Origin: Flavobacteriales bacterium
GTDB lineage: Bacteria > Bacteroidota > Bacteroidia > DT-38
Assembly: GCA_013214205.1 (NCBI GenBank)
Contig: JABSPQ010000184.1
Span: forward strand, 1-33,509
Direction of reading: 5' to 3'
DNA: 33,509 nucleotides
In this document: piece by piece, positions 10,206 through 33,066 of the stretch
Numbering within the stretch: position 1 is the first letter of the stretch
Layout of the letters: each line of letters opens with the position of its first letter
Notes under the pieces: generated by a model
Database searches by the model: none
What the model was told of the DNA's origin: nothing
Seen by the model: only the letters and a program-made list of their open reading frames with translations
Made by a program: the position numbers and the translations under genes

Positions 10206-10236
10206 ATGACATTGCCAGCGCAAATAATTTCACCAT

Positions 10237-10398: not shown

Positions 10399-10438
10399 TT
10401 CGTTTTTAATATTAAATAAGATCAGAATACAAAGTGTA

Positions 10439-13031: not shown

Positions 13032-13038
13032 TATTAAT

Positions 13039-13671
13039 ATGAACAGAAGAGAAGCACTTAAATCGATTACCGCATTAGTTGGATACTCTCTAACGATCTC
13101 CGCAACAACTGGATTTTTAAGTTCGTGTGGAGAAAAGCGTGCAGTAGTTCCGGAATGGAAATCTGTATTTTTAAGCCAAGCAGATGCCAAAGCAATTGAA
13201 GAGATGACCGAAGTTATCTTTCCTAAAACGGCTACACCTGGCGCTAAAGATGCTCAGGTAATCAAATACATAGACGATCTTTTCAAATTCATCTATAAGA
13301 AAGAAGAGACAGATAAATTCCTAGAAGGACTTAAAAGAGTCTCCCTAAAAGCTGCCGATAAATATGGCAAGCCTGTTGGAGGGTTAACGTCAGAACAATA
13401 CACGGAATTAGTAAGCAGCTATTTTAACATTCCAGAAGAGGAGTTTTCTGAAAAGCGAAGAGCAGCGAATAAAGAAGAAGTTCCAACAGATGAAATAGCG
13501 AAAGACGAATACTACGAATATTATTATTTCACTACACTTAAATCTCTTACCATAAGTGGTTATTTCACTTCCGAATTAGTAGGAGAAGAAGTATTAGATT
13601 ACAACCCAGTACCAGGAGTATACGAAACCTGTTTAGAAGAAACACCCGAAACACGAATAGCATCAGTTTAA
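13039..13671 (+). CDS. Gluconate 2-dehydrogenase subunit 3-like protein (Tat/lipoprotein signal)
   Basis: The 210-residue protein begins MNRREALKSITALVGYSLT, with an RR pair in a Tat-like context. A hydrophobic stretch ends in a lipobox-like 'FLSSC' followed by G. The body matches the small gamma-type subunit of GMC dehydrogenases: 'LSQADAKAIEEMTEVIFPKT' at about 48-67, then 'YIDDLFKFI', 'LTSEQYTELVSSYF' and 'TLKSLTISGYFTSE-GEEVL-YNPVPG' at the end. In known systems this subunit is needed for maturation and Tat export of the flavin subunit. The gene lies 7 nt after the GMC gene, and the next ATG follows its stop by 1 nt. It is therefore the partner of the 11325 protein. Confidence 0.88.
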   Translation: MNRREALKSITALVGYSLTISATTGFLSSCGEKRAVVPEWKSVFLSQADAKAIEEMTEVIFPKTATPGAKDAQVIKYIDDLFKFIYKKEETDKFLEGLKRVSLKAADKYGKPVGGLTSEQYTELVSSYFNIPEEEFSEKRRAANKEEVPTDEIAKDEYYEYYYFTTLKSLTISGYFTSELVGEEVLDYNPVPGVYETCLEETPETRIASV

Positions 13672-13672
13672 A

Positions 13673-14641
13673 ATGAAAAGAAAAGATTTTTTAAATATTG
13701 CTGGCTTAGCCTCAATAGGAATAGCCACAACAGGATTATATGCATGTAGTAACGGCACAGCAAGCGAACCAACTACAGAAGAAGTAATTGAAAAAGCGAA
13801 AGCTCTTTTCTTTAAAATCTCATTGGCACAATGGTCGTTTCATACAGCAATTAAAGCTGGCGAAATGGATCATTTAGATTTTGCTGCAACGGCGAGTAGA
13901 TTAGGTATTGGTGGTGTAGAATACGTTAGTGGTTTCTTTAAAGACAAAGCTAAAGACATGGATTATCTCAATCAGATGACCCAAAGAGCTACCGACAGCG
14001 ATGTTAAGCAATTACTAATTATGATTGATGGCGAAGGCGGCCTTGGTTCTTTAGATGCCGACAAACTAACTTCTGCAGTAGAGAATCATTACAAATGGGT
14101 TGATGCAGCTGTTCATATAGGCTGTCATTCCATTAGAGTAAACGCACACGGTGTTGGCGAAGCGGCAGATGTTTCTAAAGCTGCAATTGAAGGATTAGGA
14201 AGATTATCCGAGTATGCTGCCAAAGCAAACCTCAATGTAATTGTAGAAAATCATGGTGGACATTCTTCTAACGGAGATTGGATGAGCAATGTGCTTGCAC
14301 AAGTTAATTTGCCAAACTGTGGTTCCCTACCCGATTTCGGAAACTTTTGTATCGAGAAAAAAAGAGTAGATGGAAAAAGAATTTGCTTGGAAGATTATGA
14401 TCGTTACAAAGGAACCAAGCAATTGATGCCATTTGCAAAAGCAGTAAGTGCTAAATCGAGAAACTTTGATGCCGATGGAAACGAGGTTGAAACAGACTAT
14501 TTAAAAATGATGAAAATTGTTAAAGACGCTGGCTATACCGAGTACGTTGGAATTGAGTACGAAGGAAAAGAATTGAGCGAGGAAGATGGCGTAATTGCTA
14601 CCAAAAAGTTATTGGAAAAAGTTGGCGCACAATTAAGCTAA
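13673..14641 (+). CDS. Exported TIM-barrel sugar isomerase/epimerase-like lipoprotein
   Basis: The 322-residue protein starts MKRKDFLNIAGLASIGIATT. The Tat-like KRKDFL pattern ends in lipobox GLYAC (C25), so it should be periplasmic and anchored. The mature part is a xylose-isomerase-like TIM barrel: 'ISLAQWSFHTAI' at strand 1, 'VIVENHGGHSSN' with E192, 'LPDFGNFC' with D221, and 'EYVGIEYEGKEL' near the C-terminus. Homologues are typically found in Bacteroidota keto-sugar loci next to GMC and DUF1080 genes. The activity is not proven, but isomerisation, epimerisation or lyase chemistry on a keto-sugar fits. It is the fourth gene in the operon. Confidence 0.87.
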   Translation: MKRKDFLNIAGLASIGIATTGLYACSNGTASEPTTEEVIEKAKALFFKISLAQWSFHTAIKAGEMDHLDFAATASRLGIGGVEYVSGFFKDKAKDMDYLNQMTQRATDSDVKQLLIMIDGEGGLGSLDADKLTSAVENHYKWVDAAVHIGCHSIRVNAHGVGEAADVSKAAIEGLGRLSEYAAKANLNVIVENHGGHSSNGDWMSNVLAQVNLPNCGSLPDFGNFCIEKKRVDGKRICLEDYDRYKGTKQLMPFAKAVSAKSRNFDADGNEVETDYLKMMKIVKDAGYTEYVGIEYEGKELSEEDGVIATKKLLEKVGAQLS

Positions 14642-14653
14642 ACCTTCAACCAA

Positions 14654-15373
14654 ATGAAAAAATGGATTCTATTTGCATTAGTAGCATCCCTTTGCTGGGG
14701 CTGTAATTCGCAGAAGAAAATCAATTTATTGGTTTTCACCAAAACCAATGGCTTTAGGCATTCCTCTATCGAACCTGCAATTGAATCATTTAAAAAGCTT
14801 GGAATTGAAAACAATTTCAATACTTCTTTTACCGAAGATTCATTAGATTTTAATGCCGAGATCCTTAAGAATTTTCAGGTGGTTGTTTTTCTAAACACTA
14901 CAGGAAACATACTAAATGGCGAGCAACAAAAAGCATTTGAATCGTATATCGAATCTGGTGGTGGCTATGTAGGCATCCACGCTGGTTGCGACACCGAATT
15001 CAATTGGCCGTGGTATGGCAAACTGGTTGGGCGTTATTTTGCAGGACATCCCAAACAACAGGAAGCGGGTTTAGAAACGATTGATAAAAACCATCCTTCA
15101 ACAGAAACACTTCCTACCAAATTCAATCGTTTTGATGAGTGGTACAACTTCATCGACAAGCTTCCCGCAGATGTTAATGTACTTGTAAACCTCAATGAAA
15201 GCACTTACGAAGGCGGAACCGACAATGGCCCCCATCCTATTTCGTGGCACCACAATGTTGGCGAAGGCCGTTCGTTCTTCACCGCTATGGGACATACAGA
15301 AGAGTCTTATCAAGAAGAACTATTTCTATCCCACATCCTAGGTGGAATTCTTTGGGCTGGTAAAGTGAAATAG
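14654..15373 (+). CDS. ThuA-like domain lipoprotein
   Basis: The 239-residue protein has a short lipoprotein signal (MKKWILFALVASLCWGC, then N). It then contains a full ThuA (trehalose-utilisation) domain with a class I glutamine-amidotransferase-like fold. Landmarks are 'LLVFTKTNGFRHSSI', GGGYVGIHAGCDTEFNWPWY, 'GHPKQQ', 'DEWYNF', 'HPISWHH' and 'FTAMGHTEESY', with 'HILGGILWA' closing the domain. The Gln-amidotransferase Cys triad is not expected in this family. In rhizobia ThuA acts with ThuB on 3-keto-disaccharides. Here the domain is exported, matching the periplasmic GMC and DUF1080 partners. It starts 12 nt after the preceding stop and is the last gene of the operon. Confidence 0.9.
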   Translation: MKKWILFALVASLCWGCNSQKKINLLVFTKTNGFRHSSIEPAIESFKKLGIENNFNTSFTEDSLDFNAEILKNFQVVVFLNTTGNILNGEQQKAFESYIESGGGYVGIHAGCDTEFNWPWYGKLVGRYFAGHPKQQEAGLETIDKNHPSTETLPTKFNRFDEWYNFIDKLPADVNVLVNLNESTYEGGTDNGPHPISWHHNVGEGRSFFTAMGHTEESYQEELFLSHILGGILWAGKVK

Positions 15374-15491
15374 TTTCCCCCTTCTTTTCGTTCATATAAA
15401 TGTTGTCAATTTTCTTGATTGCTAACAAGGATGACTGTTATATTTACTCATTCCTCCTTCAAGAAAAAAAATAGCGGGATCAATTCAATAA

Positions 15492-16174
15492 ATTATAGCA
15501 GAGAGCAATAGCGAGATATATGATAATATTGTTGAAGACCTAGGTGTATCGCTGAGTTTCAATTACACATACGAGCAAAAAACCAATGAGAAAAATGCCA
15601 ATGTCATCGCATTTTCCTTTTCTGGTAAGCTAGAGCACCCAACATTTCCTAATACAATTATATACTCCAAAGTTGAAGCAACCTTTTTTTAGGCGACAGA
15701 AAAATGCCTGATGTATATACCCTTCCTAATGTTGCCTTTCAAAATGAAAAAATCAAATATCGAAATTGGGGAACTGTATATGGTAATGAGTTTGAATTGA
15801 CCAAAGAAAAAAACGAAATTAACAAGTCGTTAGTTTTTATTATTGATGCTTCCGATCCTTTAAGTCTTGACTTCTATGGTTCTTGCCAAGATATTGACAT
15901 CTATTACAAGAAGTCTACAGAAAGAGACATCAAGAAGTTATGCAAACACTTGAACATCGAAATTCCAGAAGCGCCCACAGCTCCTACCAATCCAGAACCA
16001 CCAACATCTGTTGCTAAAGAAGCTCCCGTAAAAGAAGGGAAAGCATCTCCCCTAAAAGAAGAATTGGTAACCTCAAAGGAAGAAGATGACTTTTCAATTT
16101 CAGGCAATAACCAGAATAATTCAGATGAAATCTTATCAAATCGATCTGGCCGAATCTCAAACCAATTCGAGTAA
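15492..16174 (+). pseudogene. Unrecognised protein, frameshifted in a poly-T tract
   Basis: From 15704 to 16174 a 156-codon frame runs MPDVYTLPNVAFQNEKIKY..., followed by a Pro/Glu-rich low-complexity tail (PEAPTAPTNPEPPTS). Upstream, a frame open from about 15492 reads '...DNIVEDLGVSLSFNYTYEQK...VIAFSFSGKLEHPTFP' and ends at a TAG directly after a 7-T run (15684-15690). One extra T would join it smoothly to 'LGDRKMPDVY', so a 1-nt loss in the homopolymer is likely. No start codon is visible for the upstream part; the region before it (15400-15490) is also frame-broken. I do not recognise the family. The 156-codon part may be annotated as a stand-alone hypothetical protein. Confidence 0.5.
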
Positions 16175-16434
16175 AACGGGATATAATATCCAGTTACGTA
16201 AGAATTACAAGGCAATGCTCAATTCATTCTTGATTGGCCTATGAAAAATTCAGCCACCCGCCCGAACCTAGCGTTCGGTACGAGCGGGTAAAACAAGGGT
16301 TGATTTTTTTTGCGTTTGCCCGCCCCTTGGCGGATATAGTAAGCATTCCATAAGTTGAGTTTTTCTTGAAAAGAAAAAGGAACGGCTTGGTTTGCGTGGA
16401 AAAATTAAAGCCGTAGTTTTATCTGAATTATTCA

Positions 16435-16503
16435 TAAGTCTTGAATTTTTTGCTTACTTTTTTTTCAAGAAAAAAAGTAAGTGCCCGTCCGGTACTAGGA
16501 CAA
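16435..16503. repeat. Dispersed hairpin repeat, copy 2
   Basis: This copy has the same order of elements as 5326-5392: TAAGTCTTGAATTTTTTGC, an 11-bp stem CTTACTTTTTT (16453-16463) / AAAAAAGTAAG (16471-16481), then GTGCCCGTCC...AGGACAA. Confidence 0.65.
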
Positions 16504-16518
16504 TAGCAGCTAATTTAT

Positions 16519-16563
16519 CAGGAAAGAGCAGGACAGCAAACCCAAATCAACACACTATTTTTG
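16519..16563 (+). promoter_or_regulatory. Phased CAGGA motif plus -7 box upstream of pfkA
   Basis: CAGGAAAG (16519-16526) and CAGGACAG (16529-16536) are 10 bp apart. GCAGGACA (16528-16535) is followed after exactly 20 nt by TATTTTTG (16556-16563), a perfect TAnnTTTG -7 box. The leader to ATG 16591 is about 20-25 nt. Confidence 0.6.
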
Positions 16564-16590
16564 TTTTATAAATTATTCTGAATAAAGCCC

Positions 16591-17574
16591 ATGAACACCA
16601 ATATAAAAAAAATTGCAGTACTAACATCTGGAGGTGATGCACCCGGAATGAACGCAGGTATTAGAGCCGTTGTTAGAACAGCCATATACGAATGCATGCA
16701 AGTTTATGGTGTATACAGAGGCTACCAAGGACTTATCGAGGGCGACATGGTAGAGCTAAAATCCAAGAGTGTCGGCAACATTATTCAACGTGGTGGCACC
16801 ATCTTAAAAAGCGCCCGAAGTGAGGAATTCAGAACAGAAGAAGGCAGAGCCAAAGCACATGAACATCTTAAAGCAAAAGGTATTGATGCATTGGTGGTAT
16901 TGGGTGGTGACGGTACATTTACTGGCGCCGAAGTTTTCAGCAAAGAATACAACATACCTGTAATCGGTGTTCCGTGCACAATAGACAAAGACCTTTCGGG
17001 AACAGACCACACCATTGGCTACGACACCGCTATGAATACCGTTATAGAAGCTGTAGACAAAATTAGAGATACTGCCATATCGCACAACCGTCTTTTCTTT
17101 ATAGAAGTAATGGGCCGAGATGCTGGTTACCTAGCTCTTAGAAGTGGTATCGGTGTTGGTGCGGAAGCCATATTAATTCCAGAATCCCCTACTTACATCG
17201 ACAGACTTATTGAGAAATTAGAAAAAGGGCGAAGAAGTAATAAATCAAGTGGAATAATTATAGTTGCAGAAGGCAACGAAGAAGGTGGCGCTTACAAAAT
17301 ATCGAAACTTGTAAAAGAGCGTTTCGATCATTACGAAATGAAAGTATCTGTACTTGGTCATATGCAAAGAGGCGGTTCGCCTTCTGCAAACGACAGATTG
17401 CTTGCAAGTCAATTAGGATACAATGCAGTACTAGGATTAAAAGATGGCCTTTCGGGCGTAATGGTTGGTAAAATTCACAAAGACATCAAATTCAGCCCCT
17501 TCAAAGAAGTGATAGACCACGATGCTACCATCAACGAAGCTTTTCTTAAAATGGTAGACGTTTTATCTATCTAG
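16591..17574 (+). CDS. pfkA: ATP-dependent 6-phosphofructokinase
   Basis: The 327-residue protein is the normal length for bacterial PfkA. It phosphorylates fructose 6-phosphate to fructose 1,6-bisphosphate in cytoplasmic glycolysis. Seen motifs are the nucleotide-binding IAVLTSGGDAPGMNAGIRA (residues 8-26), GGDGT at 105-109 (Gly rather than Asp after GGD, as in ATP-dependent enzymes), catalytic TIDKD at 130-134, 'EVMGRDAGYLAL' and 'LGHMQRGGSPSANDR' near the C-terminus. It is flanked by intergenic regions on both sides, and its promoter shares the ACAGGACA architecture with gap. It is not in an operon with gap, as 208 nt separate them. Confidence 0.97.
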   Translation: MNTNIKKIAVLTSGGDAPGMNAGIRAVVRTAIYECMQVYGVYRGYQGLIEGDMVELKSKSVGNIIQRGGTILKSARSEEFRTEEGRAKAHEHLKAKGIDALVVLGGDGTFTGAEVFSKEYNIPVIGVPCTIDKDLSGTDHTIGYDTAMNTVIEAVDKIRDTAISHNRLFFIEVMGRDAGYLALRSGIGVGAEAILIPESPTYIDRLIEKLEKGRRSNKSSGIIIVAEGNEEGGAYKISKLVKERFDHYEMKVSVLGHMQRGGSPSANDRLLASQLGYNAVLGLKDGLSGVMVGKIHKDIKFSPFKEVIDHDATINEAFLKMVDVLSI

Positions 17575-17649
17575 AATTTAAATATTCGCAATTACAAATA
17601 AATACAATCACACCCACACCCCTTTCCAGTAAAGGATTTTGCAATCAAT

Positions 17650-17695
17650 ACAGCACAGAACAGGACAGATAGCCCGTTATAGCGAAGTATATTTG
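17650..17695 (+). promoter_or_regulatory. Phased ACAG motif plus -7 box upstream of gap
   Basis: ACAGCACA (17650-17657) and ACAGGACA (17660-17667) are 10 bp apart. Exactly 20 nt later is TATATTTG (17688-17695), a perfect TAnnTTTG. The gene starts at 17783, giving a leader of about 80 nt. This is the best-formed example of the class. Confidence 0.65.
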
Positions 17696-17782
17696 CATCG
17701 TAATATTTCACCAATCAAACTTTAACCACAACGATTTCTTTCGTTGTTTTCAACAGAGTTAGATTCCAATTTTAAATAGAAT

Positions 17783-18781
17783 ATGAGAAAGATAAATGTA
17801 GCTATTAACGGATTTGGCAGAATTGGACGAGTTGCTCTAAGGTTAATGATGGATCAACCAAACATCCAAGTAGTAGCAATTAACGACCTAACCGATGCAG
17901 CCACTTTAAAGCACCTCTTTAAATACGATAGCGTACATGGAGTATATAAAGGATCGATAGCAGTTAAAGATTCATACCTCCAAATTGAAGATCAAAAAAT
18001 TCAAATTCTTTCAGAACGCGATCCAGAAAACCTCCCTTGGAAAGAACTAGACATCGATTTAGTCATTGAATCAACTGGGATCTTTATTACAAGAGAAGGT
18101 GCTAAAAAACACATTAAGGCAGGTGCCAAAAAGGTGCTAATCTCCGCTCCTGCTAAAGGTGACGGCATTAAAACAATTGTTTTAGGAGTTAATGACGATA
18201 CGTTAAATGGCGACGACATAGTTTCGAATGCATCTTGCACCACAAACTGTATTGCACCAATGATTAAGGTATTGCAAGACAAAATTGGTATTGAGCAAGG
18301 TTATATCACCACCGTTCATGCATACACATCCGATCAAAACATTCAGGATGCACCACACAGTGATTTAAGAAGAGCTAGATCGGGAGCAGTTTCTATTATC
18401 CCCACCACCACAGGTGCAGCAGCAGCAGTTGGTTTGGTACTACCCGAATTAAATGGAAAACTAGACGGTATGGCAATGCGAGTTCCAGTGCCAGATGGTT
18501 CTATTACAGATTGTTCTTTAATACTAAAAGAAGAAGTAACTGCAGATCAAATTAATACTTGGATGAAAGAAGCTTCAGAAACTTCTTTAAAAGGCATTAT
18601 GGAATATACCGACGAACCAATTGTGTCTGCGGACATTGTAGGTAACAAACACAGTTGTATATTCGATTCGCAATTAACCAAAACCCATGGGAAAATGGTT
18701 AAATTAATCGGCTGGTACGACAACGAAGTGGGATATGCATCTCGTTTAGTTGACATGGTTGGTCGGCTATGTGAAAACTAA
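17783..18781 (+). CDS. gap: Type I glyceraldehyde-3-phosphate dehydrogenase
   Basis: The 332-residue protein is a standard GapA-type enzyme. It oxidises glyceraldehyde 3-phosphate to 1,3-bisphosphoglycerate with NAD in glycolysis. The Rossmann motif NGFGRIGRVALR occurs at about 10-21, with D35 (AIND) favouring NAD. The catalytic Cys C152 lies in SNASCTTNCIAP and the paired H179 in TTVHAYT. 'RRARSGAVSIIPTTTGAAAAVG' and the terminal 'WYDNEVGYASRLVDM' complete the signature. The DUF4212 gene follows by 20 nt, so gap is probably the first gene of a three-gene transcript with a symporter. Confidence 0.97.
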   Translation: MRKINVAINGFGRIGRVALRLMMDQPNIQVVAINDLTDAATLKHLFKYDSVHGVYKGSIAVKDSYLQIEDQKIQILSERDPENLPWKELDIDLVIESTGIFITREGAKKHIKAGAKKVLISAPAKGDGIKTIVLGVNDDTLNGDDIVSNASCTTNCIAPMIKVLQDKIGIEQGYITTVHAYTSDQNIQDAPHSDLRRARSGAVSIIPTTTGAAAAVGLVLPELNGKLDGMAMRVPVPDGSITDCSLILKEEVTADQINTWMKEASETSLKGIMEYTDEPIVSADIVGNKHSCIFDSQLTKTHGKMVKLIGWYDNEVGYASRLVDMVGRLCEN

Positions 18782-18801
18782 TACCAACAAGTAAACCGTA
18801 G

Positions 18802-19053
18802 ATGGAAGATAAAAAAAAAGCATATTGGAAAGAAAACCTGCGCTTTTTGGGAATTCTTCTGTCTATCTGGTTCGCTGTATCATTTGGAGCGGGCATTCTA
18901 TTTAAAGACGTCCTCGATCAATTTCATTTCGGTGGTTTCAAATTAGGTTTCTGGTTCGCGCAGCAAGGTTCTATATATGTTTTTGTGATTTTGATTTTTG
19001 TCTACATAAGAGGCATGAACAAACTCGATAAAAAATACGGCTATGACGAATAG
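18802..19053 (+). CDS. DUF4212 small membrane subunit of a sodium:solute symporter
   Basis: The 83-residue protein matches DUF4212: 'YWKENLRFLGILLSIWFAVS', 'FGAGILFKDVLDQF', then 'GFKLGFWFAQQGSIYVFVIL' and a charged tail. It has two membrane helices, with the invariant FWFAQQGS between them. Such proteins are encoded directly before VC_2705-type SSS symporters and are thought to be their small subunit. Here the symporter starts 27 nt downstream with a GTG. It is expected in the inner membrane. Confidence 0.9.
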   Translation: MEDKKKAYWKENLRFLGILLSIWFAVSFGAGILFKDVLDQFHFGGFKLGFWFAQQGSIYVFVILIFVYIRGMNKLDKKYGYDE

Positions 19054-19080
19054 TCTATTTATAACCAAAACAACAAAACT

Positions 19081-20844
19081 GTGAGCGTTCAAGAATGGAG
19101 TTGGATTTTGGTTGGAGTTACCTTCGCATTGTACTTCGGTATTGCAATATGGGCAAGAGCTGGAACAACTAAAGAATTCTACGTTGCTGGTGGAGATGTT
19201 TCTACCGTGGCAAATGCAATGGCCACAGGCGCCGATTGGATGAGTGCTGCATCATTTATTTCGATGGCCGGCATCATCTCCTTTATTGGCTACGACGGCT
19301 CTATGTATTTAATGGGCTGGACAGGTGGTTATGTTTTACTAGCCCTACTCCTAGCCCCTTATCTTCGCAAATTTGGCAAGTTTACCGTGCCCGATTTTAT
19401 TGGCGATAGATATTATTCTAACACAGCTCGAACAGTTGCCATATTTTGTGCCCTAATAATCTCCTTTACCTATGTTGCAGGTCAAATGCGAGGCGTTGGA
19501 ATCGTATTTTCTCAATTTTTACAAGTAGATATTGAAGTAGGTGTAATTATTGGGATGACAGTCGTAATGTTCTTCGCGTTCCTGGGCGGAATGAAAGGCA
19601 TCACCTACACACAAGTTGCTCAATATTGTGTTTTGATTTTTGCATTTATGGTGCCTGCAATCTTCATTTCAATTCAAATGACAGGCAGTCCTATTCCACA
19701 AATTGGCATGGGAAGCAAGCTCGAAAATGGAAAATATTTGCTTCAACATCTAGATGATCTCCACACCAAATTAGGTTTTAAAGAATATACCCAAGGCACA
19801 AAGTCTACATGGGATATGTTTGCCATAACGCTTGCCCTTATGGTTGGCACGGCAGGATTGCCTCATGTAATCGTTCGTTTCTTCACTGTAGAGAAAGTTA
19901 AAGACGCTCGTAAATCAGCAGGGTTGGCACTTTTATTCATTGCGTTTCTATACACTACTGCACCAGCGGTTGCTGTTTTCTCTAGGGTAAATCTGATTGA
20001 AACGGTGCAAGACAATTCGTACTCAGACATTCCTCAATGGTTCAAAAACTGGGAAGACAGAGGTTTGATTGCATGGGCAGATAAAAATGAAGATGGCAAG
20101 ATTCAGTATTCCAATTCAAAAGCTGTAGATGGAAAACCTGATTTTACGAATGAACGGGGCGTAAATGGAGAAAGGTTAGTTTCTAATGCTGTCGATAGTA
20201 AGAATGAATTGTACATAGATCGCGACATTATTGTTTTGGCGAATCCAGAGATTGCCAACTTGCCCAATTGGGTTATTGCATTGGTAGCAGCAGGAGGATT
20301 GGCAGCTGCCTTGTCTACAGCAGCAGGATTACTTTTGGTAATATCCACATCCATTTCGCACGATTTAATTAAGAAGCAACTCAAGCCAAACATCTCCGAC
20401 AAACAAGAATTGATGTATGCAAGAGTCAGCATTTTTGTAGCTGTAATTATTGCTGGACTCTTTGGTATTTATCCACCAGGTTTTGTAGCTGCTGTTGTAG
20501 CTCTGGCGTTTGGCTTGGCGGCAGCGTCCTTCTTCCCTGCTATTGTGTTTGGGATCTTCGACAAAAGAATGAATAAGGAAGGAGCAATTTCTGGAATGGT
20601 AATAGGAATCACCCTCATGTTGTTTTACATGATCCGTTACAAAACAGGCTTAATAGAAATTATGGATCCGTTACCTCAAAGCGAATGGTGGTTTGGTACA
20701 TCACCAGAAGGTTTCGGTACCATCGCTATGACAGTTAACATTGTAGTATCTCTGGTTGTATCCCGTCTCACTCCACCGCCACCACAAGATGTTATAGACA
20801 TTGTAGAAAACATTAGAATTCCGATAGACATTACTACTAAATAA
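19081..20844 (+). CDS. Sodium:solute symporter (SSS family, acetate/organic-acid type)
   Basis: The 587-residue integral membrane protein has about 13 helices. The start is GTG (MSVQEWSWILVGVTFALYF). Family landmarks are 'EFYVAGGDVSTVANAMATGADWMSAASFI' (helix 2; residues 33-61), 'GMKGITYTQVAQYCVLI', 'GTAGLPHVIVRFF' and 'ALSTAAGLLLVISTSISHD'. The DUF4212 pairing points to the VC_2705/ActP-like subgroup, which moves small monocarboxylates. It has an unusual hydrophilic insert (about 320-395) with an EF-hand-like loop D334-K-N-E-D-G-K-I, matching DxNxDGxI. It ends with a Pro-rich C-terminus. It is the third gene after gap. Substrate inferred only. Confidence 0.93.
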   Translation: MSVQEWSWILVGVTFALYFGIAIWARAGTTKEFYVAGGDVSTVANAMATGADWMSAASFISMAGIISFIGYDGSMYLMGWTGGYVLLALLLAPYLRKFGKFTVPDFIGDRYYSNTARTVAIFCALIISFTYVAGQMRGVGIVFSQFLQVDIEVGVIIGMTVVMFFAFLGGMKGITYTQVAQYCVLIFAFMVPAIFISIQMTGSPIPQIGMGSKLENGKYLLQHLDDLHTKLGFKEYTQGTKSTWDMFAITLALMVGTAGLPHVIVRFFTVEKVKDARKSAGLALLFIAFLYTTAPAVAVFSRVNLIETVQDNSYSDIPQWFKNWEDRGLIAWADKNEDGKIQYSNSKAVDGKPDFTNERGVNGERLVSNAVDSKNELYIDRDIIVLANPEIANLPNWVIALVAAGGLAAALSTAAGLLLVISTSISHDLIKKQLKPNISDKQELMYARVSIFVAVIIAGLFGIYPPGFVAAVVALAFGLAAASFFPAIVFGIFDKRMNKEGAISGMVIGITLMLFYMIRYKTGLIEIMDPLPQSEWWFGTSPEGFGTIAMTVNIVVSLVVSRLTPPPPQDVIDIVENIRIPIDITTK

Positions 20845-20874
20845 AACACAATATGTTTGAGATAATAAAACCAT

Positions 20875-20986
20875 TGTCAGTTCGAGTGCCGCTTCTTCAG
20901 CGGTGTATCCAGAACACAATGGCTTTATGCCACAAAAAAATGCTTCTCGATACTATCCGCCTTATGGCGAATCACTCGAAGTGACA
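20875..20986. repeat. 112-bp inverted-repeat intergenic element, copy 2
   Basis: Arms TGTCAGTTCGAGTG (20875-20888) and CACTCGAAGTGACA (20973-20986) match copy 1 at 10286-10398. Internal GTATCCAGAACACAA and CTTCTCGATA are also shared, and the right arm is followed by ATTTTTAATAT. This one also has GCCGCTTCTTCAGCGG, a small inner hairpin. The T-run makes it a possible terminator for the symporter gene. The right end lies 39 nt before the 21026 start codon. Confidence 0.7.
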
Positions 20987-21025
20987 TTTTTAATATAAAA
21001 CAAGCATACCAAACCCAACCAAACT

Positions 21026-23905
21026 ATGCAGAGCTCAATTAAAATAAAATCTCTTTTAGTTTTAGTAACATGCACTTCACTCCTACTAACTAATTGTAGT
21101 ACATCTACAGAACCTAGTACGAGCATCTCCTCCAACACCGAATTAGAAAAAGGATTTCTAAACCCTGCTTCCGAAAACGGTGCATTGTGTTTATGGCCTT
21201 GGATGAATGGCTATGTTGACACAGCCAAACTGGTGTTTGAATTAGAGGAAATGAAAGCCAAAGGAATGCGAGGCGCTTTAATTTGGGATGTTGGCTCACT
21301 AGCCGATCCTGATAAAATAATCCCAACGGGGCCAGCTTTCTTGGGCAAAGAGTCATTAACATATTTTAAAGTTGCCATGGACAAAGGCTCTGATTTAGGA
21401 CTCGATATTGGGTTGTTTATGTCGAGCAGTTGGAACGCTGGAGGCCCGTGGATAGACTCCGCAAATGGATCTATGGAACTAATTACATCTTCTCAAATTA
21501 TAGAAGGAGCTGGAAAGAAAAAGATTATAATTCAAAAACCAGAAACAGAGTTAGGATACGACGACTTCGATAATCCAATTTCGGTTACCAGATACGCTTT
21601 GGTTTCGTCTTTGGCAATTCCGTATTCAGAATCAAAACAAATAGATAATCCTAGCAAAGCCATAATATTAGACCAGTTTACCGCTGAGAATAAAGTAATA
21701 GAATGGGAAGTGCCAGAGGGAAAATGGGAAGTGATTTCATTCTTTATGAGCAGTACTGGTCAAAATTTAAGATGCCCCAGTCCTAATTCCAACGGACTTA
21801 TGATAGACCACCTGAGTGCAATTGCCACCAAACAACATTTTGATAGTGTACTTACCAAATTGGCAACAATTACAACCCCTGAAAATCACCTTAAATTTTT
21901 AATGTTAGACAGCTACGAGGTTTGGACTATGACAGATTGGTCGCCTTTATTAGTGAGCGAATTCAAAGAAAGATATGGCTACGATCCATTGCCATATCTA
22001 CCATTACTAAAAGGGTATAAATCAACTGACACAACTATTGACGAACGATTCCGTGGTGATTATAGCCGATTAGTAAGTGACCTAATGATCGAAAATCACT
22101 TTGCACAATCGGTAACGATAGCCGACCAACACAATATTGAAATGGTAACAGAAGCTGGTCATGGTGGCTACCCTCGAGTTGACCCATTAAAAGCATTAGG
22201 AAACTCACACATTCCTATGGGCGAATTTTGGAACAGAATGCAATTTTGGGTAACCAAAGAAGCGGCAAGTGCTGCTCACATCTATAACAAAAAACTGGTA
22301 GCTTCTGAATCCCTAACAGGATGGAATCATTGGCAACATGGCCCTGCAGATTTTAAACAACTAATAGACAGAGCATTTTGCGAAGGGTTAAACCAGCTTG
22401 TATTTCATGTATTTGAGCACAATCCAGAAATTGCTGGCAAACCAGGATTTGTATATCATGCAGGAGAACATGTTAATGTAAATGCAACTTGGTGGTCGAG
22501 AGCCGAGCCTTTTATGGACTACATAGCTAGGAGTTCTTACCTTTTAAGACAAGGCCTTTTTGTTGGCGACGCATGTCTGTATTATGGCGACCAAGCCCCT
22601 AACCTAGTACCACCCAAAAAGATTGATCCCAATATAAAAGAAACCCATGGAGAAGGCCTATGCTTACATTGTGGAGCACCAAAACCTGTTGACGTTGGCG
22701 ATTTACCCGGCTACGATTACGATTACATGAACGCCGATATCATTACTACCACATTGGGAGTTAAGGATGGTAAATTGGTACTTCCATCAGGAATTGAATA
22801 CAAGGTGATGTTGATTCCGAAGAGAGTTGATATTTCGTTAGACGTAATTAGAAGTCTTGAGAAACTAGTAAACGATGGCGCAATAGTTATTGGAACAAAG
22901 CCTGAAAGAACAACTTCGCTAAAAGACTACCCTGCTTGCGATGATGAGGTGAAAGCCATTGCCGATAAATTATGGGGCGATGCTGATGGCAAAACGATTT
23001 TCTCTAACAATTACGGAAAAGGAAAAGTTTACTGCGGCAAAACGGTTCAGGAGGTGTTAACAGAAATAAATGTGGGAAAAGACTTTTCTGTTACAGGGAT
23101 TGACAATCCTCACGATCATGTTGATTATATCCACAGAAGAACTGAAACAGAAGACATCTATTTTGTCACCAACAGCACGCATCAAGAACAAAACGTAACA
23201 TGTACATTCAGAATTAAGAACAGAGTTCCCGAATTATGGGACGCTGTAACTGGACTAATTCAAAGAGATGTTGCATTCAAAAAAACAAAAAACGGTATCA
23301 GTATAGAGCTTATTCTAGAGCCTCTTTCTTCAAGGTTTGTAATCTTTAGAGATCAATCAACAGGAATAAATGATGCTGATTTGGCGATTGATTTACAATA
23401 TGGTACAACCAAATTAAAGTCTACTGTAATAGACATTACAAAAGATTGGAGAGTAACTTTCGATACAGAAATGGGTGGTCCAGAGTCGTACCAAATGGAA
23501 ATTTTAACCAGTTGGTCGGAAGCTGAAGAGATCAAATATTATTCTGGCGACGCAACATATAGCAAAGTCTTTACAATTGAAACAGGTGCACTTAAAGACG
23601 GAACTAAAGTATCGGTATCCTTTGAAGACATTCAGGAAATTGCGAACGTTACCATAAATGGTAACGATTGTGGAATTGTTTGGGCTCCACCCTATCGATT
23701 AAACATAACCGACTTTGTAAAAGAAGGAGCTAATGAAATAATAGTTCAAGTGGCCAACACATGGAACAACAGAATCGTTGGCGATTTAAGCAATCCTGAC
23801 GAAACGCCATACACCAACACCAATGCAAAGGTTAAATTCAAAGCAGACGGTCCACTCCTACAATCTGGCCTAATAGGCAAAGCAGAAATTCTATTGAGTA
23901 AATAA
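21026..23905 (+). CDS. GH106-like glycoside hydrolase lipoprotein (alpha-L-rhamnosidase-type)
   Basis: The 959-residue protein has a lipoprotein signal: MQSSIKIKSLLVLVTCTSLL, then LTNC and S. The N-terminal catalytic region starts LCLWPWMNGYVDTAKLVFEL and 'KAKGMRGALIWDVG', then 'GLFMSSSWNAGGPWID'. It continues through 'MLDSYEVWTMTDWSP', 'MVTEAGHGGYPRVDPL' and 'VASESLTGWNHWQHG'. The C-terminal ~100 residues form a galactose-binding-like beta-sandwich with 'VANTWNNRIVGDL'. This architecture resembles large GH106-related proteins of Bacteroidota that remove rhamnose or related deoxy sugars. The family is a resemblance call; catalytic residues were not individually verified. It stands alone, is probably envelope-anchored, and could supply substrate to the 3-keto-glycoside locus. 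Confidence 0.75.
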   Translation: MQSSIKIKSLLVLVTCTSLLLTNCSTSTEPSTSISSNTELEKGFLNPASENGALCLWPWMNGYVDTAKLVFELEEMKAKGMRGALIWDVGSLADPDKIIPTGPAFLGKESLTYFKVAMDKGSDLGLDIGLFMSSSWNAGGPWIDSANGSMELITSSQIIEGAGKKKIIIQKPETELGYDDFDNPISVTRYALVSSLAIPYSESKQIDNPSKAIILDQFTAENKVIEWEVPEGKWEVISFFMSSTGQNLRCPSPNSNGLMIDHLSAIATKQHFDSVLTKLATITTPENHLKFLMLDSYEVWTMTDWSPLLVSEFKERYGYDPLPYLPLLKGYKSTDTTIDERFRGDYSRLVSDLMIENHFAQSVTIADQHNIEMVTEAGHGGYPRVDPLKALGNSHIPMGEFWNRMQFWVTKEAASAAHIYNKKLVASESLTGWNHWQHGPADFKQLIDRAFCEGLNQLVFHVFEHNPEIAGKPGFVYHAGEHVNVNATWWSRAEPFMDYIARSSYLLRQGLFVGDACLYYGDQAPNLVPPKKIDPNIKETHGEGLCLHCGAPKPVDVGDLPGYDYDYMNADIITTTLGVKDGKLVLPSGIEYKVMLIPKRVDISLDVIRSLEKLVNDGAIVIGTKPERTTSLKDYPACDDEVKAIADKLWGDADGKTIFSNNYGKGKVYCGKTVQEVLTEINVGKDFSVTGIDNPHDHVDYIHRRTETEDIYFVTNSTHQEQNVTCTFRIKNRVPELWDAVTGLIQRDVAFKKTKNGISIELILEPLSSRFVIFRDQSTGINDADLAIDLQYGTTKLKSTVIDITKDWRVTFDTEMGGPESYQMEILTSWSEAEEIKYYSGDATYSKVFTIETGALKDGTKVSVSFEDIQEIANVTINGNDCGIVWAPPYRLNITDFVKEGANEIIVQVANTWNNRIVGDLSNPDETPYTNTNAKVKFKADGPLLQSGLIGKAEILLSK

Positions 23906-24060: not shown

Positions 24061-26175
24061 ATGAAATTTCATTCAAAAACATTATTACAATTCGTAATAG
24101 CCGTTTTAATTGTAACCCTTACAACCTCTTTACAAGCACAAAGCGAGCACTTTTGCAAAAATCAAGAACACTTAGAAAGGTTAAGCAAAGAAAACCCTAC
24201 AGAATATAAAGCGCTTCTTAAACGGATAACAGATCACGACAGAGAAAGCGAAAGAATTGATTTACAGAAAGCCGTAACCGATACAACCTACATTGTACCT
24301 GTTGTATTCCACATCATTCACAACAACGGGCCCGAAAAAATATCTCAAGCCCAAATACTAGATGCAATGAGAATTTTGAATGAAGATTTTAATAAATTAA
24401 ATGCAGATACCGCAGAAGTTCTTGACATATTCAAACCCATAATTTCCGACGTTAGATATGAATTTAGATTGGCACAAATAGACCCTAATGGCAATTGCAC
24501 AAACGGCATCAATTATTACGAAAGTAGCGAACACTATAAAGGAGGAAACGATGCCGCAATGAAATGGGTACAAGATCAATGGACACCCAATCATTGGAAA
24601 GGTAGATTCTATTTAAATATTTACGCCAATACAGGTATTGGTGGAGGCTGGAGTTATGGACCAACCAAGCTGGATAAGTATTCGGGAGTAATGGTGCAAA
24701 CAGATTTTATTGGTTTAGTAGGCACAGGTGTTGGTGGTTACAACGAAAGGACAATAACACATGAAGTTGGCCATTGGTTTAACTTAGGTCACACGTGGGG
24801 CGGAGGTGGCGATCCTGCTGTAACTGGTAATTGCAATAAAGACGACGGTGTAGCCGACACCCCTAACTGCGGGGGAACTTTTAGTTGCGCTGAAAGAAAC
24901 TCGTGCGATGACGGTGTAGATGACTTACCAGACAACAATCAAAACTATATGGACTATGCCTGTGGAGTAATGTTTACTGAGGGACAAAAAACAAAAATGA
25001 TCAACTCTATGCTTACAATAAGTCACAGAGATTTGTTTGATTCTACCAACCTTGCAAATACAGGCACAATAGATCCATATGTATATGGTTCCGTTACTTG
25101 CTATCAACCAACGGTTGAAATCTCCATACCTTATGAAGATCTATTTATTTGTACTGGCGATTCAGTTACTTATTCTTATTTTACTGAAGGAGCCGTGGCA
25201 GATAGTGTTAAATGGGAGTTTCCTAATGGAAGTCCAGCAACTTCAACCAACGATTTCCCACAAATTACTTATTCTACTGGCGGAAAGCACAGTGCTTACC
25301 TTACCATATATGCTGGTGAATATACTGCTTCAGATTCTTCGGAAGTTAGCACAATACAACTTGGTGACGGTGAAGTTTACCCTTATTCAAACAATTTTGA
25401 AGACGAAGTAGACTTCGACGACAACTTTTACATTTCTAATCTAAATGGTGATGCAAGCGGTTGGGAATATTATAATGGTGCCAGTTTCAGTGGTTCCAAT
25501 TGTATTAGCATGAACAACGACAATAATATAGCAGGTAGAGAGGATGAACTATTTGGCCCCTTATTAGATTTATCTAGCATGGAAGGTAATGCTGCTATTT
25601 TATCTTTCCAATTGGCTTACGCTATGAAAACTGGCAAAACCGACAGGCTAGAAGTTTACTTCACTAAAAATTGTGGAGAAAAATGGAATAAATTCTACAC
25701 AAAATCTGGCGGAGAAATAGCCACAACGTCAAATAGTACTGGTTCATTTGTTCCAACAAAAGCATCTGAATGGAGGCAAGAATTGATTGAACTACCTGTA
25801 CCCTACTCTACAGTTGATGTTTTATTCAAATTTGTTTTCACATCCGATCAAGGCAACTCTTTATATATAGACGACATCAACTCTTATTCTTCAAGCATTA
25901 ATAAAAACGATGAGATTAACAGATCATTGAGCATCTTCCCAAACCCTGTAAATCCCAATTCAACCATTTCATTCGACTTGCCTAACAGCGAAGAAGTAAC
26001 AGTAGAAATCTACAACCTACTTGGCGATAAAGTGGCTAGTACATCGTACGGTAAGTTGGCGAAAGGAAGTCATCAGTTAAACTTAGAAATGGGAGCTAAA
26101 AGCCAAAGTGGAATCTACTTTGTTAAAGTGAAGTTTAACAACGAGGTAATTACTCGAAAAGTGGTTAAGCAATAG
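24061..26175 (+). CDS. Secreted M43 (pappalysin-like) zinc metalloprotease with T9SS sorting domain
   Basis: The 704-residue protein has a signal peptide ending TTSLQAQ. After a propeptide-like N-region comes 'YIVPVVFHIIHNNGPEKIS' and 'QILDAMRILNEDFN', then the zinc motif HEVGHWFNLGH (H234, E235, H238, H244). The Met-turn region is 'NYMDYACGVMFTEGQK'. A PKD/Ig-like domain (VKWEFPNGSPATSTNDFPQ) and a MAM-like beta-sandwich ('LFGPLLDLSSMEGNAAILS') follow. The C-terminus is a type-A sorting domain (SLSIFPNPVNPNSTISFDL ... GIYFVKVKFNNE). It should be exported by the Sec and T9SS systems and act outside the cell. It is the tandem paralogue of the next gene. Confidence 0.94.
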   Translation: MKFHSKTLLQFVIAVLIVTLTTSLQAQSEHFCKNQEHLERLSKENPTEYKALLKRITDHDRESERIDLQKAVTDTTYIVPVVFHIIHNNGPEKISQAQILDAMRILNEDFNKLNADTAEVLDIFKPIISDVRYEFRLAQIDPNGNCTNGINYYESSEHYKGGNDAAMKWVQDQWTPNHWKGRFYLNIYANTGIGGGWSYGPTKLDKYSGVMVQTDFIGLVGTGVGGYNERTITHEVGHWFNLGHTWGGGGDPAVTGNCNKDDGVADTPNCGGTFSCAERNSCDDGVDDLPDNNQNYMDYACGVMFTEGQKTKMINSMLTISHRDLFDSTNLANTGTIDPYVYGSVTCYQPTVEISIPYEDLFICTGDSVTYSYFTEGAVADSVKWEFPNGSPATSTNDFPQITYSTGGKHSAYLTIYAGEYTASDSSEVSTIQLGDGEVYPYSNNFEDEVDFDDNFYISNLNGDASGWEYYNGASFSGSNCISMNNDNNIAGREDELFGPLLDLSSMEGNAAILSFQLAYAMKTGKTDRLEVYFTKNCGEKWNKFYTKSGGEIATTSNSTGSFVPTKASEWRQELIELPVPYSTVDVLFKFVFTSDQGNSLYIDDINSYSSSINKNDEINRSLSIFPNPVNPNSTISFDLPNSEEVTVEIYNLLGDKVASTSYGKLAKGSHQLNLEMGAKSQSGIYFVKVKFNNEVITRKVVKQ

Positions 26176-26321: not shown

Positions 26322-28439
26322 ATGCATCAAACTTTCAAGACCATGTATCGTCCTAATTCCACCTTCAGAATATTATTGGCTACCCTATTATTGGCCTTTG
26401 CAACTTCGGTTTCAGCTCAAAACGAGCATTTCTGCACCAGTGTAGAAAAACTAGAATTGCTTAAAAAGATTGATCCTGCCAAGTACAAATCAATAAGAGA
26501 TCAAGCAACAAAGCACCAAGCAGAGGCCAAACATTTAGAATTACAGAAAATAGCGAAGCCAGATACAATCTACGTTATTCCAATCGTGTTTCACATCATT
26601 CACAACGGAGGCGAAGAAAAAATTTCGGAAGCTCAAGTATTAGATGCCATGAGAATTTTAAATGAAGACTTTAACGCCTTAAGCCCCGATACGGTTGATG
26701 TTGACCCTTTATTCTGGTATCTATATGCAAACATTGGTTTCGAATTTAGATTAGCGCAAATAGATCCTGATGGCAATTGCACCAACGGAATTATATACTA
26801 CCAACATCCTACACATTACACAGGTGGTAGCGATGCGACATGGTCGTGGGTGCAAAACCAACTAAACAATACATGGAAATACGATCAATATTTAAATATC
26901 TATACCAACGTGGGGTCAAGTAACTTTACTTGGGGGCCTACAACCGATGTTTGGTCGGGTGTGATGATAGAACACAATAATGTTGGATCCATTGGTACTG
27001 GTGTGGGAAATGGATTGTGGGAAAGAACCCTTACCCACGAAATTGGGCACTGGTTTAACCTTACGCATACATGGGGGCCAAAGGCAATTGGTGAAGGCAC
27101 ACCCTGTAATCAGGATGATGGTGTTGAAGACACGCCAAACTGTAAAGGGACATATGGTTGTAGTTCTACTCTAAATAGTTGCGACGACGGCCCTGGTGAT
27201 CTAAAAGACATGATGCAAAACTACATGGACTATGGATGCTCGATTATGTTTACCGAAGGGCAAAAAGCAAGAATGCTTGCCTCTTTAATGACCAACAAAC
27301 AAAAAAACTTATTTACTCAATCTAATCTCGAAAAAACAGGAACGGCAGCTCCTTATGTTTATGGAGAAAATACATGTCAAGATCCTACCCTTGAATTAAA
27401 TGTAGTAGATGAAATAGACGTTATCTGTGTAGGCCAAGAAATTATGTTTAATTACGAAACGTGGGGCGGAGTTATAGATAGCGTTTCATGGGATTTTACG
27501 AACGGAACTCCATCTACGTCAACTATGGAAAACCCATCTGTTTCTTTTACAGTTGGAGGAATTCAAACTTCAACACTAACTATTTATTCAGGCGAATTTG
27601 AAGCCAGTGAGAGTATTGATATTACCGTTGGTGAATTAGGCGATGGGATCTCCTACCCATTCACCACAACCTTTGATGATGAAGCTCAATACAATGAATA
27701 CTTTACTGTAACAAATACAAATAACGACTCGAAACTTTGGGAGAGAGCTACAACCGTTGGCTTTAGCGATACTACTTGTATGAGGTTGCTAAACAACTCT
27801 AGTACCAACGGAAACGAAGATGTACTTTGGGGCCCCCTATTAGACTTAAGCGGTCACACATCTACAAATCCATTTACGTTTAAATTGGCCTACTCATACA
27901 CCAATAGTAAAAACGATAAATTAGAAATCTTCTTTTCGAAAACATGCGGAGATACTTGGAACAAATTCTACAACAAAAAGGGTTCTCAGCTCCAAACCAT
28001 GTCGGGTGTAACGCCTAATTCTATGGACGATTGGCGAGAAGATTCTTTTACTATTCCTACAGGGTATAATGTTGCCGACGTTCAATTTAAATTTGTATTT
28101 ACCTCGGCAGGTGGCAGCCACATTTGGATTGACGACTTCAACAATACATTGGCAAGCGTTGCAAATGTAAATGTGATTGGGAGATCGTTAAACATTTTTC
28201 CTAATCCAATTAGTTCTAATTCTGTAGTTTCTTTTAACCTTCCAAATGAAGAAGAAGAAGTAACAATAGACATCTACAATTTGCTTGGAGATAAAGTGTC
28301 GAGTGCTGCTTACGGCCAACTGGCAAAAGGAAGTCATCAATTAACATTGGAATTAAACAACAACAATTTAAATGGAATCTACTTTATTAAAGTAAGATTC
28401 GGCAGCGAGGTTGTTACCCGTAAAGTAATTAAACAGTAA
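26322..28439 (+). CDS. Secreted M43 zinc metalloprotease with T9SS sorting domain, tandem paralogue
   Basis: This 705-residue protein has the same domain order as the gene before it: signal peptide (ILLATLLLAFATSVSAQ), propeptide, and catalytic domain with HEIGHWFNLTH (H239, E240, H243, H249). The Met-turn region 'NYMDYGCSIMF', Ig-like 'DFTNGTPSTSTMENPS', a beta-sandwich 'LWGPLLDLSGHT' and the sorting domain 'SLNIFPNPISSNSVVSFNL ... GIYFIKVRFGSE' follow. ATG 26343 (MYRPNSTFRILLA) gives a tighter signal peptide and may be the true start. A -7-like TAACTTTA lies at about 26298. The upstream region lacks the ACAGGACA motif seen before its paralogue, so regulation may differ. Confidence 0.93.
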   Translation: MHQTFKTMYRPNSTFRILLATLLLAFATSVSAQNEHFCTSVEKLELLKKIDPAKYKSIRDQATKHQAEAKHLELQKIAKPDTIYVIPIVFHIIHNGGEEKISEAQVLDAMRILNEDFNALSPDTVDVDPLFWYLYANIGFEFRLAQIDPDGNCTNGIIYYQHPTHYTGGSDATWSWVQNQLNNTWKYDQYLNIYTNVGSSNFTWGPTTDVWSGVMIEHNNVGSIGTGVGNGLWERTLTHEIGHWFNLTHTWGPKAIGEGTPCNQDDGVEDTPNCKGTYGCSSTLNSCDDGPGDLKDMMQNYMDYGCSIMFTEGQKARMLASLMTNKQKNLFTQSNLEKTGTAAPYVYGENTCQDPTLELNVVDEIDVICVGQEIMFNYETWGGVIDSVSWDFTNGTPSTSTMENPSVSFTVGGIQTSTLTIYSGEFEASESIDITVGELGDGISYPFTTTFDDEAQYNEYFTVTNTNNDSKLWERATTVGFSDTTCMRLLNNSSTNGNEDVLWGPLLDLSGHTSTNPFTFKLAYSYTNSKNDKLEIFFSKTCGDTWNKFYNKKGSQLQTMSGVTPNSMDDWREDSFTIPTGYNVADVQFKFVFTSAGGSHIWIDDFNNTLASVANVNVIGRSLNIFPNPISSNSVVSFNLPNEEEEVTIDIYNLLGDKVSSAAYGQLAKGSHQLTLELNNNNLNGIYFIKVRFGSEVVTRKVIKQ

Positions 28440-29144: not shown

Positions 29145-30074
29145 ATGAAAACTAAAAACAGACTAAAGGCATATTCTATTACAGCAGCGGCTCTTGCCCT
29201 AAGCGGATCTGCAAGTGCGGATGTAATATATACAGATTTAAACCCCGATTCTGTTCTGCAAGATAGTGGGAGTTTTAGTTTAGACTTAGACAACAATGGG
29301 GTAAGCGATTTTGAATTTAACCTAATGATGAGTAGTAACATTTTCAATGGCACAATCTCTTCGCGACCAAGTTTAGGCTACATAAATTATGTTGGCTCTC
29401 AAAAATTCATGACAGGCTATCCTAATGATTACAATAGGTTTGAGGCCATTACTAGCGCTGGTACTTATTCTACTTATTGGTACCTACCAGTTGACAAACC
29501 AGCTGGGAATGTTATTTCAGAAAGCCTTAGATGGGTGGGGAAAAGCGATATATTTAGAGGCTCTTCCTCTTACAGAACAGCATATTTTGGATACCAATAT
29601 TTCCAATCCTTCGACTTCGAAGGAACCTCGAATAACCCAGGAGGATCATCCGTAGGAAGCTATGATGGAGGAGAATTCGCAAATGGATATGATAGGTACT
29701 TTAGTTTGCAACTTGTTGTAAATTCAGATACAATGTATGGTTGGGTACTATTAAATCTATCAGCCGACATTTCTACTTTTACTGTTAAAGAATATGCATA
29801 TAGCGATGTTCCTAATGAACCCATAAAAGCAGGCCAAGTAAATACAACTGGCATTGAATCTAGAGATGATAATAAAGCATCTATATATGGTTTCAACAGA
29901 CAGATTCATATTTCGGGTACCAAAGGCACAGCAACCATCTACAACATGACAGGCCAAAGAGTACACCGATCCCAATTATCGGGCAAGGAAACCATTACAC
30001 TTAACAGCGGTGTTTACTTGGTTAAAGTAGCCAATGGAAAAAACAGCACTACCAAAAAAGTAATCCTTAATTAG
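29145..30074 (+). CDS. Secreted protein with T9SS sorting domain, function unknown
   Basis: The 309-residue protein has a signal peptide (MKTKNRLKAYSITAAALALS, cleavage after GSASA). The mature N-region reads 'DVIYTDLNPDSVLQDSGSFS' and 'DLDNNGVSDFEFNLMMSS', a beta-rich domain with a DLDNNGVSDF Asp/Asn motif, and 'YGWVLLNLSADISTFTVKEYAY'. The C-terminal 75 residues are a sorting domain ('SIYGFNRQIHISGTKGTATI', 'IYNMTGQRVHRSQLSG', 'GVYLVKVANGKNS'). The middle domain reminds me of secreted proteins with a C-terminal anchor that cluster near proteases, but I cannot name it. Surface or secreted localisation is likely. Confidence 0.85.
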   Translation: MKTKNRLKAYSITAAALALSGSASADVIYTDLNPDSVLQDSGSFSLDLDNNGVSDFEFNLMMSSNIFNGTISSRPSLGYINYVGSQKFMTGYPNDYNRFEAITSAGTYSTYWYLPVDKPAGNVISESLRWVGKSDIFRGSSSYRTAYFGYQYFQSFDFEGTSNNPGGSSVGSYDGGEFANGYDRYFSLQLVVNSDTMYGWVLLNLSADISTFTVKEYAYSDVPNEPIKAGQVNTTGIESRDDNKASIYGFNRQIHISGTKGTATIYNMTGQRVHRSQLSGKETITLNSGVYLVKVANGKNSTTKKVILN

Positions 30075-30319: not shown

Positions 30320-31012
30320 ATGGAATCAGCAGATCACAAAATAATAAACGGACACAAGCACGTTTCTTTTCACTCAGAAACAATCTCAGAAACTGAATTG
30401 ATCGCTAAAAGCGAATCCTTTTATAAATGGCAAGATGAAAGAAGATCGGTAAGAGATTTTTCCGACAAGCACGTCCCAAAAGAAGTAATAGAGAACCTCA
30501 TTAAAAGTGCGTCCACTGCCCCATCGGGAGCACACAAACAACCGTGGACATTTTGCGCGGTTTCTAATGCAGAGATAAAAGCGCAAATAAGAAAAGAAGC
30601 TGAAATAGAAGAAAAGGAAAGCTACGAAAGTAGAATGAGTAAGAGTTGGAAAAAAGATTTAGAAGCCTTGGGAACCGACATGAACAAACCGTTTTTAGAA
30701 ACCGCTCCATGGCTTATCATCGCATTTAAAAAAGCCTACGACTTCGGCGAAAACGATGAAAAAATGAACAACTATTATGTTACTGAATCTGTTGGAATAG
30801 CCTGTGGAATGTTAATTACAGCTATTCAGAATGCTGGGTTAGTTACATTAACACATACGCCTAGCCCAATGAAGTTTCTTGCTAATATTCTAGACAGACC
30901 TAGCAACGAAAGAGCCTATTTGTTACTTCCTGTAGGATATCCAGAAACCCCAACCTTCGTTCCCGATTTAAAAAGAAAAGAATTGGATGAAGTAGCTAAA
31001 TTTTATGAATAA
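30320..31012 (+). CDS. Iodotyrosine deiodinase-like nitroreductase-family flavoprotein
   Basis: The 230-residue protein has the nitroreductase fold binding FMN: 'DERRSVRDFS' at 39-48, 'STAPSGAHKQPWTF' at 65-78, and 'LLLPVGYPETPTFVPDLKRK' at the C-terminus. The whole length resembles vertebrate iodotyrosine deiodinase (IYD) very closely as recalled. The residues that bind the zwitterion of mono-iodotyrosine in IYD (a Glu-x3-Tyr pair and a Lys in the active-site lid) are all present as E98, Y102 and K123. Bacterial IYD relatives reductively dehalogenate halotyrosines with FMN. It is cytoplasmic. The gene stands alone, so its physiological role here is unknown. Confidence 0.9.
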   Translation: MESADHKIINGHKHVSFHSETISETELIAKSESFYKWQDERRSVRDFSDKHVPKEVIENLIKSASTAPSGAHKQPWTFCAVSNAEIKAQIRKEAEIEEKESYESRMSKSWKKDLEALGTDMNKPFLETAPWLIIAFKKAYDFGENDEKMNNYYVTESVGIACGMLITAIQNAGLVTLTHTPSPMKFLANILDRPSNERAYLLLPVGYPETPTFVPDLKRKELDEVAKFYE

Positions 31013-31053: not shown

Positions 31054-31096
31054 GCGTCCGCTTGGAATACAGCTAACAAAGCGTCCGCTTGGAATA
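31054..31096. repeat. Short direct repeat before the GHMP kinase gene
   Basis: GCGTCCGCTTGGAATA occurs at 31054-31069 and again at 31081-31096. The first copy extends to CAAGCG-tc-CGCTTG, a small palindrome. Confidence 0.5.
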
Positions 31097-32320: not shown

Positions 32321-33066
32321 ACAACTGCCTACTTAAAATTCCCAATTTTATTCGACGAGACTAAACTGCTCCATGACTTAGCGTTAATTGTAAACGATAA
32401 GTGGATTCCGCATTTTAATGAAATGGGCTATAATGGAGAATGGAAAGCCATTCCACTGTATGCAAAAGACGGAAAAGAATCCAATATATTCGCTCATTTG
32501 TCGGACTGGAGATGTCGGACAATGAAACCGCATTGAAAACAGCTTTAATGAAAGATTGCCACTATTTTAGAGAGGTTATTGAATCGTTCAAATTCCCATT
32601 TCAAACTGTACGCCTACTAAGACTTGGAATTGGAGCAGAAATAAAGCCACACCAAGATCACGAGTTAGGCTACAAAGAAGGCGTTTTCCGATTGCACATC
32701 CCCATTTCCACCAGCGATGGCGTGCAGTTTATTTTAGACAATACATTATTAAAAATGCTACCAGGCCAATGCTGGTATACCAATGTTAACTACGAGCATT
32801 CTGTTTCTAATATGGGAAAAACAGATCGGGTTCATTTGGTAATTGATGGCATTAGGAACGAATGGTCCGACAAAATGTTTTTCGAAATGGCTCCCGTGGA
32901 AAGCTTTCAATCCATCCCCTTTAAAGAAAGCACTTCGGTCGACATAATAAGACAAACCATCGAGGGATTAGAACTTAGCGACTTTCCTGCGAATAAAGAA
33001 TTGAAACAAGATTTGGCCAAAGCCACAGCAGAAAGCACTACACTATCAAGCGGTAAGCCAGCTTAA
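32321..33066 (+). pseudogene. Aspartyl/asparaginyl beta-hydroxylase-family protein, frameshifted
   Basis: A frame from about 32321 reads 'TTAYLKFPILFDETKLLHDL' to 'IPLYAKDGKESNIFAHLS' and stops at 32536. The rest of the same domain continues in another frame to 33066, from 'GLEMSDNETALKTALMKDC' through 'RLGIGAEIKPHQDHELGY' and 'PGQCWYTNVNYEHSVSNMGK'. The second half keeps the iron-type ligands expected of the family (H-x-D in 'KPHQDHE', His in 'YEHSV', Arg in 'RVHLVIDG'). The join needs a single lost base near 32500-32503. No ATG, GTG or TTG precedes 'TTAYLKFP' in frame; the codon where relatives start (M-T-A-Y-L) is ACA. So the gene lacks both a start and continuity, although an ATT start or base-call errors remain possible. 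A 208-codon ORF from 32440 begins in the wrong frame. Confidence 0.75.

Follow-up and report, generated by a model that had tools for sequence, protein, structure and literature searches.

The forward strand of the window, the whole stretch of 33,509 nucleotides of Flavobacteriales DNA that was analyzed, carries a gene that raises the question whether this bacterium encodes an iodotyrosine deiodinase (IYD) and what such an enzyme would do there. The open reading frame (ORF) was found to be intact from its ATG to its stop codon with exact coordinates (Table 1), and encodes a protein of 230 amino acids, whereas the opposite strand is interrupted by stops. Inspection of the translation by eye revealed an N-terminus without a hydrophobic stretch.

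In a sequence search of the PDB, the best matches were 5ko7, 5ko8 and 5krd (E = 2.8e-78), which carry the PDB name 'Nitroreductase' and which we take to be the bacterial IYD of Haliscomenobacter hydrossis. The IYDs of mouse and human followed with E-values of 2.5e-60 to 3.1e-58, the lowest of which was obtained for mouse. Entry 6pz0, named 'iodotyrosine deiodinase' and presumably the IYD of Thermotoga neapolitana, was retrieved at 5.1e-24, and all remaining PDB nitroreductases at 1.5e-12 or weaker. With E-values of 2.8e-78 for 5ko7 and 2.5e-60 for mouse IYD, a chance resemblance is excluded. The order and separation of the matches were unchanged when a profile built from eight close relatives was used. 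Pairwise alignments gave 60% identity to 5ko7 (118 of 196 aligned residues) and 50% identity to mouse IYD (chain 3gb5, 106 of 211). An AlphaFold model calculated from 8 sequences only had a mean pLDDT of 43.4.

The earlier note had assigned E98, Y102 and K123 to the substrate-binding triad of IYD, and this assignment holds: the translation reads E at 98, Y at 102 and K at 123, which align with E153, Y157 and K178 of mouse IYD (chain 3gb5, native numbering), presumably the residues that grip the substrate there, and with positions 91, 95 and 116 of the 5ko7 chain. The triad was present in all 47 rows of the IYD-group alignment, which consisted of the window protein, 44 loci, 5ko7 and mouse IYD (two of the loci, L006 and L007, encode identical proteins). 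All eight FMN contacts listed for mouse IYD in an excerpt of PMC3930498, namely R96, R97, S98, R100, P123, S124, T235 and R275, are identical in the 230-amino-acid protein.

Table 1. Predicted gene for the IYD-type protein and the codons of its triad and FMN-contact residues.
Feature	Position	Strand	Evidence
IYD-type FMN-dependent halotyrosine dehalogenase (predicted)	30320..31012	+	ORF, PDB sequence search, profile search
Codons 41-45 (RRSVR), mouse FMN contacts R96, R97, S98 and R100	30440..30454	+	Alignment, PMC3930498 (excerpt)
Codons 68-69 (PS), mouse FMN contacts P123 and S124	30521..30526	+	Alignment, PMC3930498 (excerpt)
E98 codon, first triad residue	30611..30613	+	Alignment
Y102 codon, second triad residue	30623..30625	+	Alignment
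K123 codon, third triad residue	30686..30688	+	Alignment
T180 codon, mouse FMN contact T235	30857..30859	+	Alignment, PMC3930498 (excerpt)
R219 codon, mouse FMN contact R275	30974..30976	+	Alignment, PMC3930498 (excerpt)

Taken with the closest relatives, the triad and the FMN contacts argue for a cytosolic, FMN-dependent IYD. The product is thus predicted, with a probability of roughly 85% and at the level of sequence, to be a soluble, stand-alone bacterial IYD-type dehalogenase of the nitroreductase superfamily, and its activity would most likely be the reductive dehalogenation of halotyrosines. The family call of the earlier note is well supported at sequence level by the triad, the FMN contacts, the best matches and the tree described below.

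By analogy with the known enzymes, the protein would most likely form an FMN-binding homodimer, in which E98, Y102 and K123 would grip the zwitterion of the halotyrosine and close a lid above it, so that the phenol ring would be stacked on the flavin. Reduced FMN could then strip off the halogen reductively, yielding halide and tyrosine, and T180, placed at the flavin N5, may favour one-electron steps. The likeliest role of such an enzyme would be the salvage or detoxification of halotyrosines, either environmental or made by oxidants, to tyrosine.

Among the IYDs of known structure, 5ko7 shares with the window protein the triad and the FMN contacts, with the exception of Ser43, which is replaced by Thr. 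Both fall inside the Bacteroidota IYD group of the tree, but in different sub-branches, that of the window protein being shared with Aquimarina and Bizionia. Mammalian IYD/DEHAL1 (3gb5, 4ttb and 5yak) likewise has the triad and all eight contacts; its N-terminal membrane segment, however, has no counterpart visible by eye in the window protein, and near the flavin the window protein reads THTPSPM where the mammalian enzyme reads TTTPLNCG, with one inserted residue. By sequence 6pz0 belongs to the same family, yet it is far more distant and shorter (192 residues).

The surroundings of the gene were inspected for hints to its function. Upstream lies a protein with a T9SS tail. The genes downstream encode a GHMP sugar kinase and a protein resembling aspartyl/asparaginyl hydroxylases, and none of the scanned ORFs of the window could be recognised as a gene of tyrosine or halogen metabolism. 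When the window was compared with 42 further loci, extending 8 kb to each side where the contig allowed, no conserved operon partner could be identified, as no family occurred in more than 6 of the 43 neighbourhoods. Two loci in which the IYD gene was missed by the ORF caller (L056 and L102) were left out of this set. The neighbour families that do recur reflect local synteny of related genomes, for example genes read by eye as PurN, FabF and RNase III. A secreted M43 metalloprotease was considered as a partner of IYD, but it was found at 4 of the 43 loci, two of which come from one genus, in an orientation unlike that in the window, and was judged to be probably coincidental.

HPPD was detected over its cut-off in the genome that contains the window, so the tyrosine released could be catabolised there. 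Across the phylum, HPPD was present in 75 of 115 genomes with IYD and in 135 of the 280 remaining genomes (odds ratio 2.0, p 0.003), based on E-values for the IYD genomes and on an over-cut-off tally of 210 of 395 for the total, and was absent from the other 40 IYD genomes, a number compiled by hand. The association was gone without family f60 (75/115 vs 135/195, odds ratio 0.83, p 0.53), which comprises at least 85 genomes by hand count, listed from the IYD, HPPD and cytochrome oxidase searches, none with a strong match to IYD or HPPD. The check proposed in the earlier note, a search for nearby or co-occurring genes of aromatic amino-acid catabolism, therefore gave no link, neither in the 43 neighbourhoods nor for HPPD without f60. 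On the halogenation side, a Trp_halogenase match in the genome (42.7 bits) was rejected as a halogenase, since neither GWxWxIP, which we take to be the halogenase motif, nor WxWxI was found in its locus; E. coli also matched in the control search with this profile. A search for animal peroxidases gave matches nowhere, controls included.

These results bear on the alternative that the IYD scaffold serves another tyrosine-like physiological substrate, such as nitrotyrosine or a halogenated phenol from algae or sponges, and that halotyrosine turnover is a side reaction. The IYD genomes without HPPD and the failure to find a conserved neighbour are in line with this, as are animal relatives such as SUP-18, the substrate of which is still to be elucidated according to an excerpt of PMC3930498. 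However, no variation was seen in the triad, which holds the amino-acid end of the substrate. This argues for a substrate that is an amino acid and has its zwitterion free, and makes this alternative rather unlikely.

A general nitroreductase or flavin reductase, which would resemble IYD through shared ancestry only, is a far weaker candidate. It would agree with the Pfam assignment to PF00881 Nitroreductase (75.8 bits vs a cut-off of 23.5), which places the protein at superfamily level only and speaks for the fold by sequence only; in an excerpt of PMC6017928, Iyd is described as a subgroup of this superfamily. Eleven ordinary nitroreductases of Bacteroidota, two of which are encoded by the genome that contains the window, served as controls; they share most of the FMN residues, including those of the FMN loop, so that these residues are by themselves not discriminating. 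None of the 11 controls, however, has the EYK triad found in all group members, the nearest being SYK and -YK, and the gap from about 1e-60 to 1e-12 between the IYDs and the other nitroreductases makes a general nitroreductase highly improbable. NCBIfam gives the protein no name, because no IYD model was returned and nothing scored over its cut-off, and a relative of BluB (5,6-dimethylbenzimidazole synthase), the top model of that search (TIGR02476), or of malonic semialdehyde reductase can practically be dismissed, since 54.5 bits compare with a curated cut-off of 150 and a BluB-like PDB entry reached only 9.5e-5.

Returning to the IYD-type dehalogenase, about 115 of the 395 genomes sampled from Bacteroidota were found to have strong orthologues (E ≤ 1e-50), spread over many families. 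This number was counted by hand, checked for duplicates and includes the window's own genome, which may or may not be among the 395. Matches in the phylum were bimodal, at 1e-55 or better versus 1e-10 or weaker, with fragments of interrupted or split genes (those of the second copy described below and of G215) between or outside the two groups. Damage was also seen among the strong matches, with internal stops in G204 and a split gene in G215. Among 60 relatives, 17 had a strong match, whereas none was found in the sole genus-mate (G001), and the gene is thus dispensable. With regard to the marine or algal material mentioned in the earlier note, the close relatives that carry a name (Aquimarina, a Bizionia MAG and, from ALOHA, a Crocinitomicaceae MAG) are presumably marine, but the strong orthologues extend over many families of the phylum. 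The rarity implied by the earlier note could not be upheld: the gene is common in Bacteroidota, and structures of bacterial IYDs already exist (6pz0 and presumably 5ko7), with further work reportedly published on two bacterial IYDs of solved structure. Because of this distribution and the bacterial IYDs in print, the gene is not new in kind; it is a genuine but ordinary bacterial IYD. The presence of a predicted halotyrosine dehalogenase in about one third of the sampled genomes means that these bacteria probably meet free halotyrosines commonly.

The same genome contains a second IYD copy (G000:C337:14142-14829; L012:5143-5833), which is 72% identical to the window protein over residues 1-138. 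It has one in-frame stop and its frame is lost mid-gene, which may be an assembly error, and the triad codons are kept. A match to the upstream T9SS-tailed protein encoded at 29145-30074 also adjoins this broken copy, but such shared adjacency is weak evidence because the protein as query gave 81 matches in its own genome, many of them to the sorting tail only. In the tree of 47 rows, the window protein grouped (support 95/81) with Aquimarina and the MAG labelled Bizionia; they belong to a larger group of nine rows (support 100/99), which further comprises G187, G235 and the second copy with its broken frame. IYD identities in this group were 75-80% (70% for G235), while the best matches of two yardstick proteins in the same genomes had 54-59% (PFK) and 52-56% (GAPDH) identity, no closer than in genomes with IYD at 60-63%. 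High IYD identity next to ordinary PFK and GAPDH identity suggests that the gene may have been gained by horizontal transfer, as judged from two yardstick genes and a tree of which the deeper forks are not settled.

It is possible, if tentatively so, that Bacteroidota IYD is a mobile enzyme that acts on its own to clear free tyrosine carrying halogen (or nitro) groups, which would work outside tyrosine catabolism and be gained, duplicated and lost between lineages. If true, this would explain the patchy presence of the gene, its lack of operon partners and its independence from HPPD, together with the broken copy in this genome and a gene tree that disagrees with both yardstick genes.

Further features were observed in the window. 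Just past the stop codon of the IYD gene, a 16-base motif occurs in two exact copies (31054-31069 and 31081-31096), 27 bases apart; no further copy was found when the genome was searched with up to 1 mismatch allowed. The only PDB relative of the aspartyl/asparaginyl hydroxylase family protein at 32440-33066 is L-proline cis-4-hydroxylase (7.2e-8). Two secreted M43 metalloproteases of the PAPP-A type with T9SS sorting tails are encoded in tandem at 24061-26175 and 26322-28439. A sugar-catabolic region at 5534-23905 encodes two 3-keto-disaccharide hydrolases, a GFO/IDH/MocA protein, two xylose-isomerase-like proteins and ThuA, as well as a GMC oxidoreductase with gluconate dehydrogenase subunit 3, a sodium/solute symporter and a GH106 rhamnosidase.
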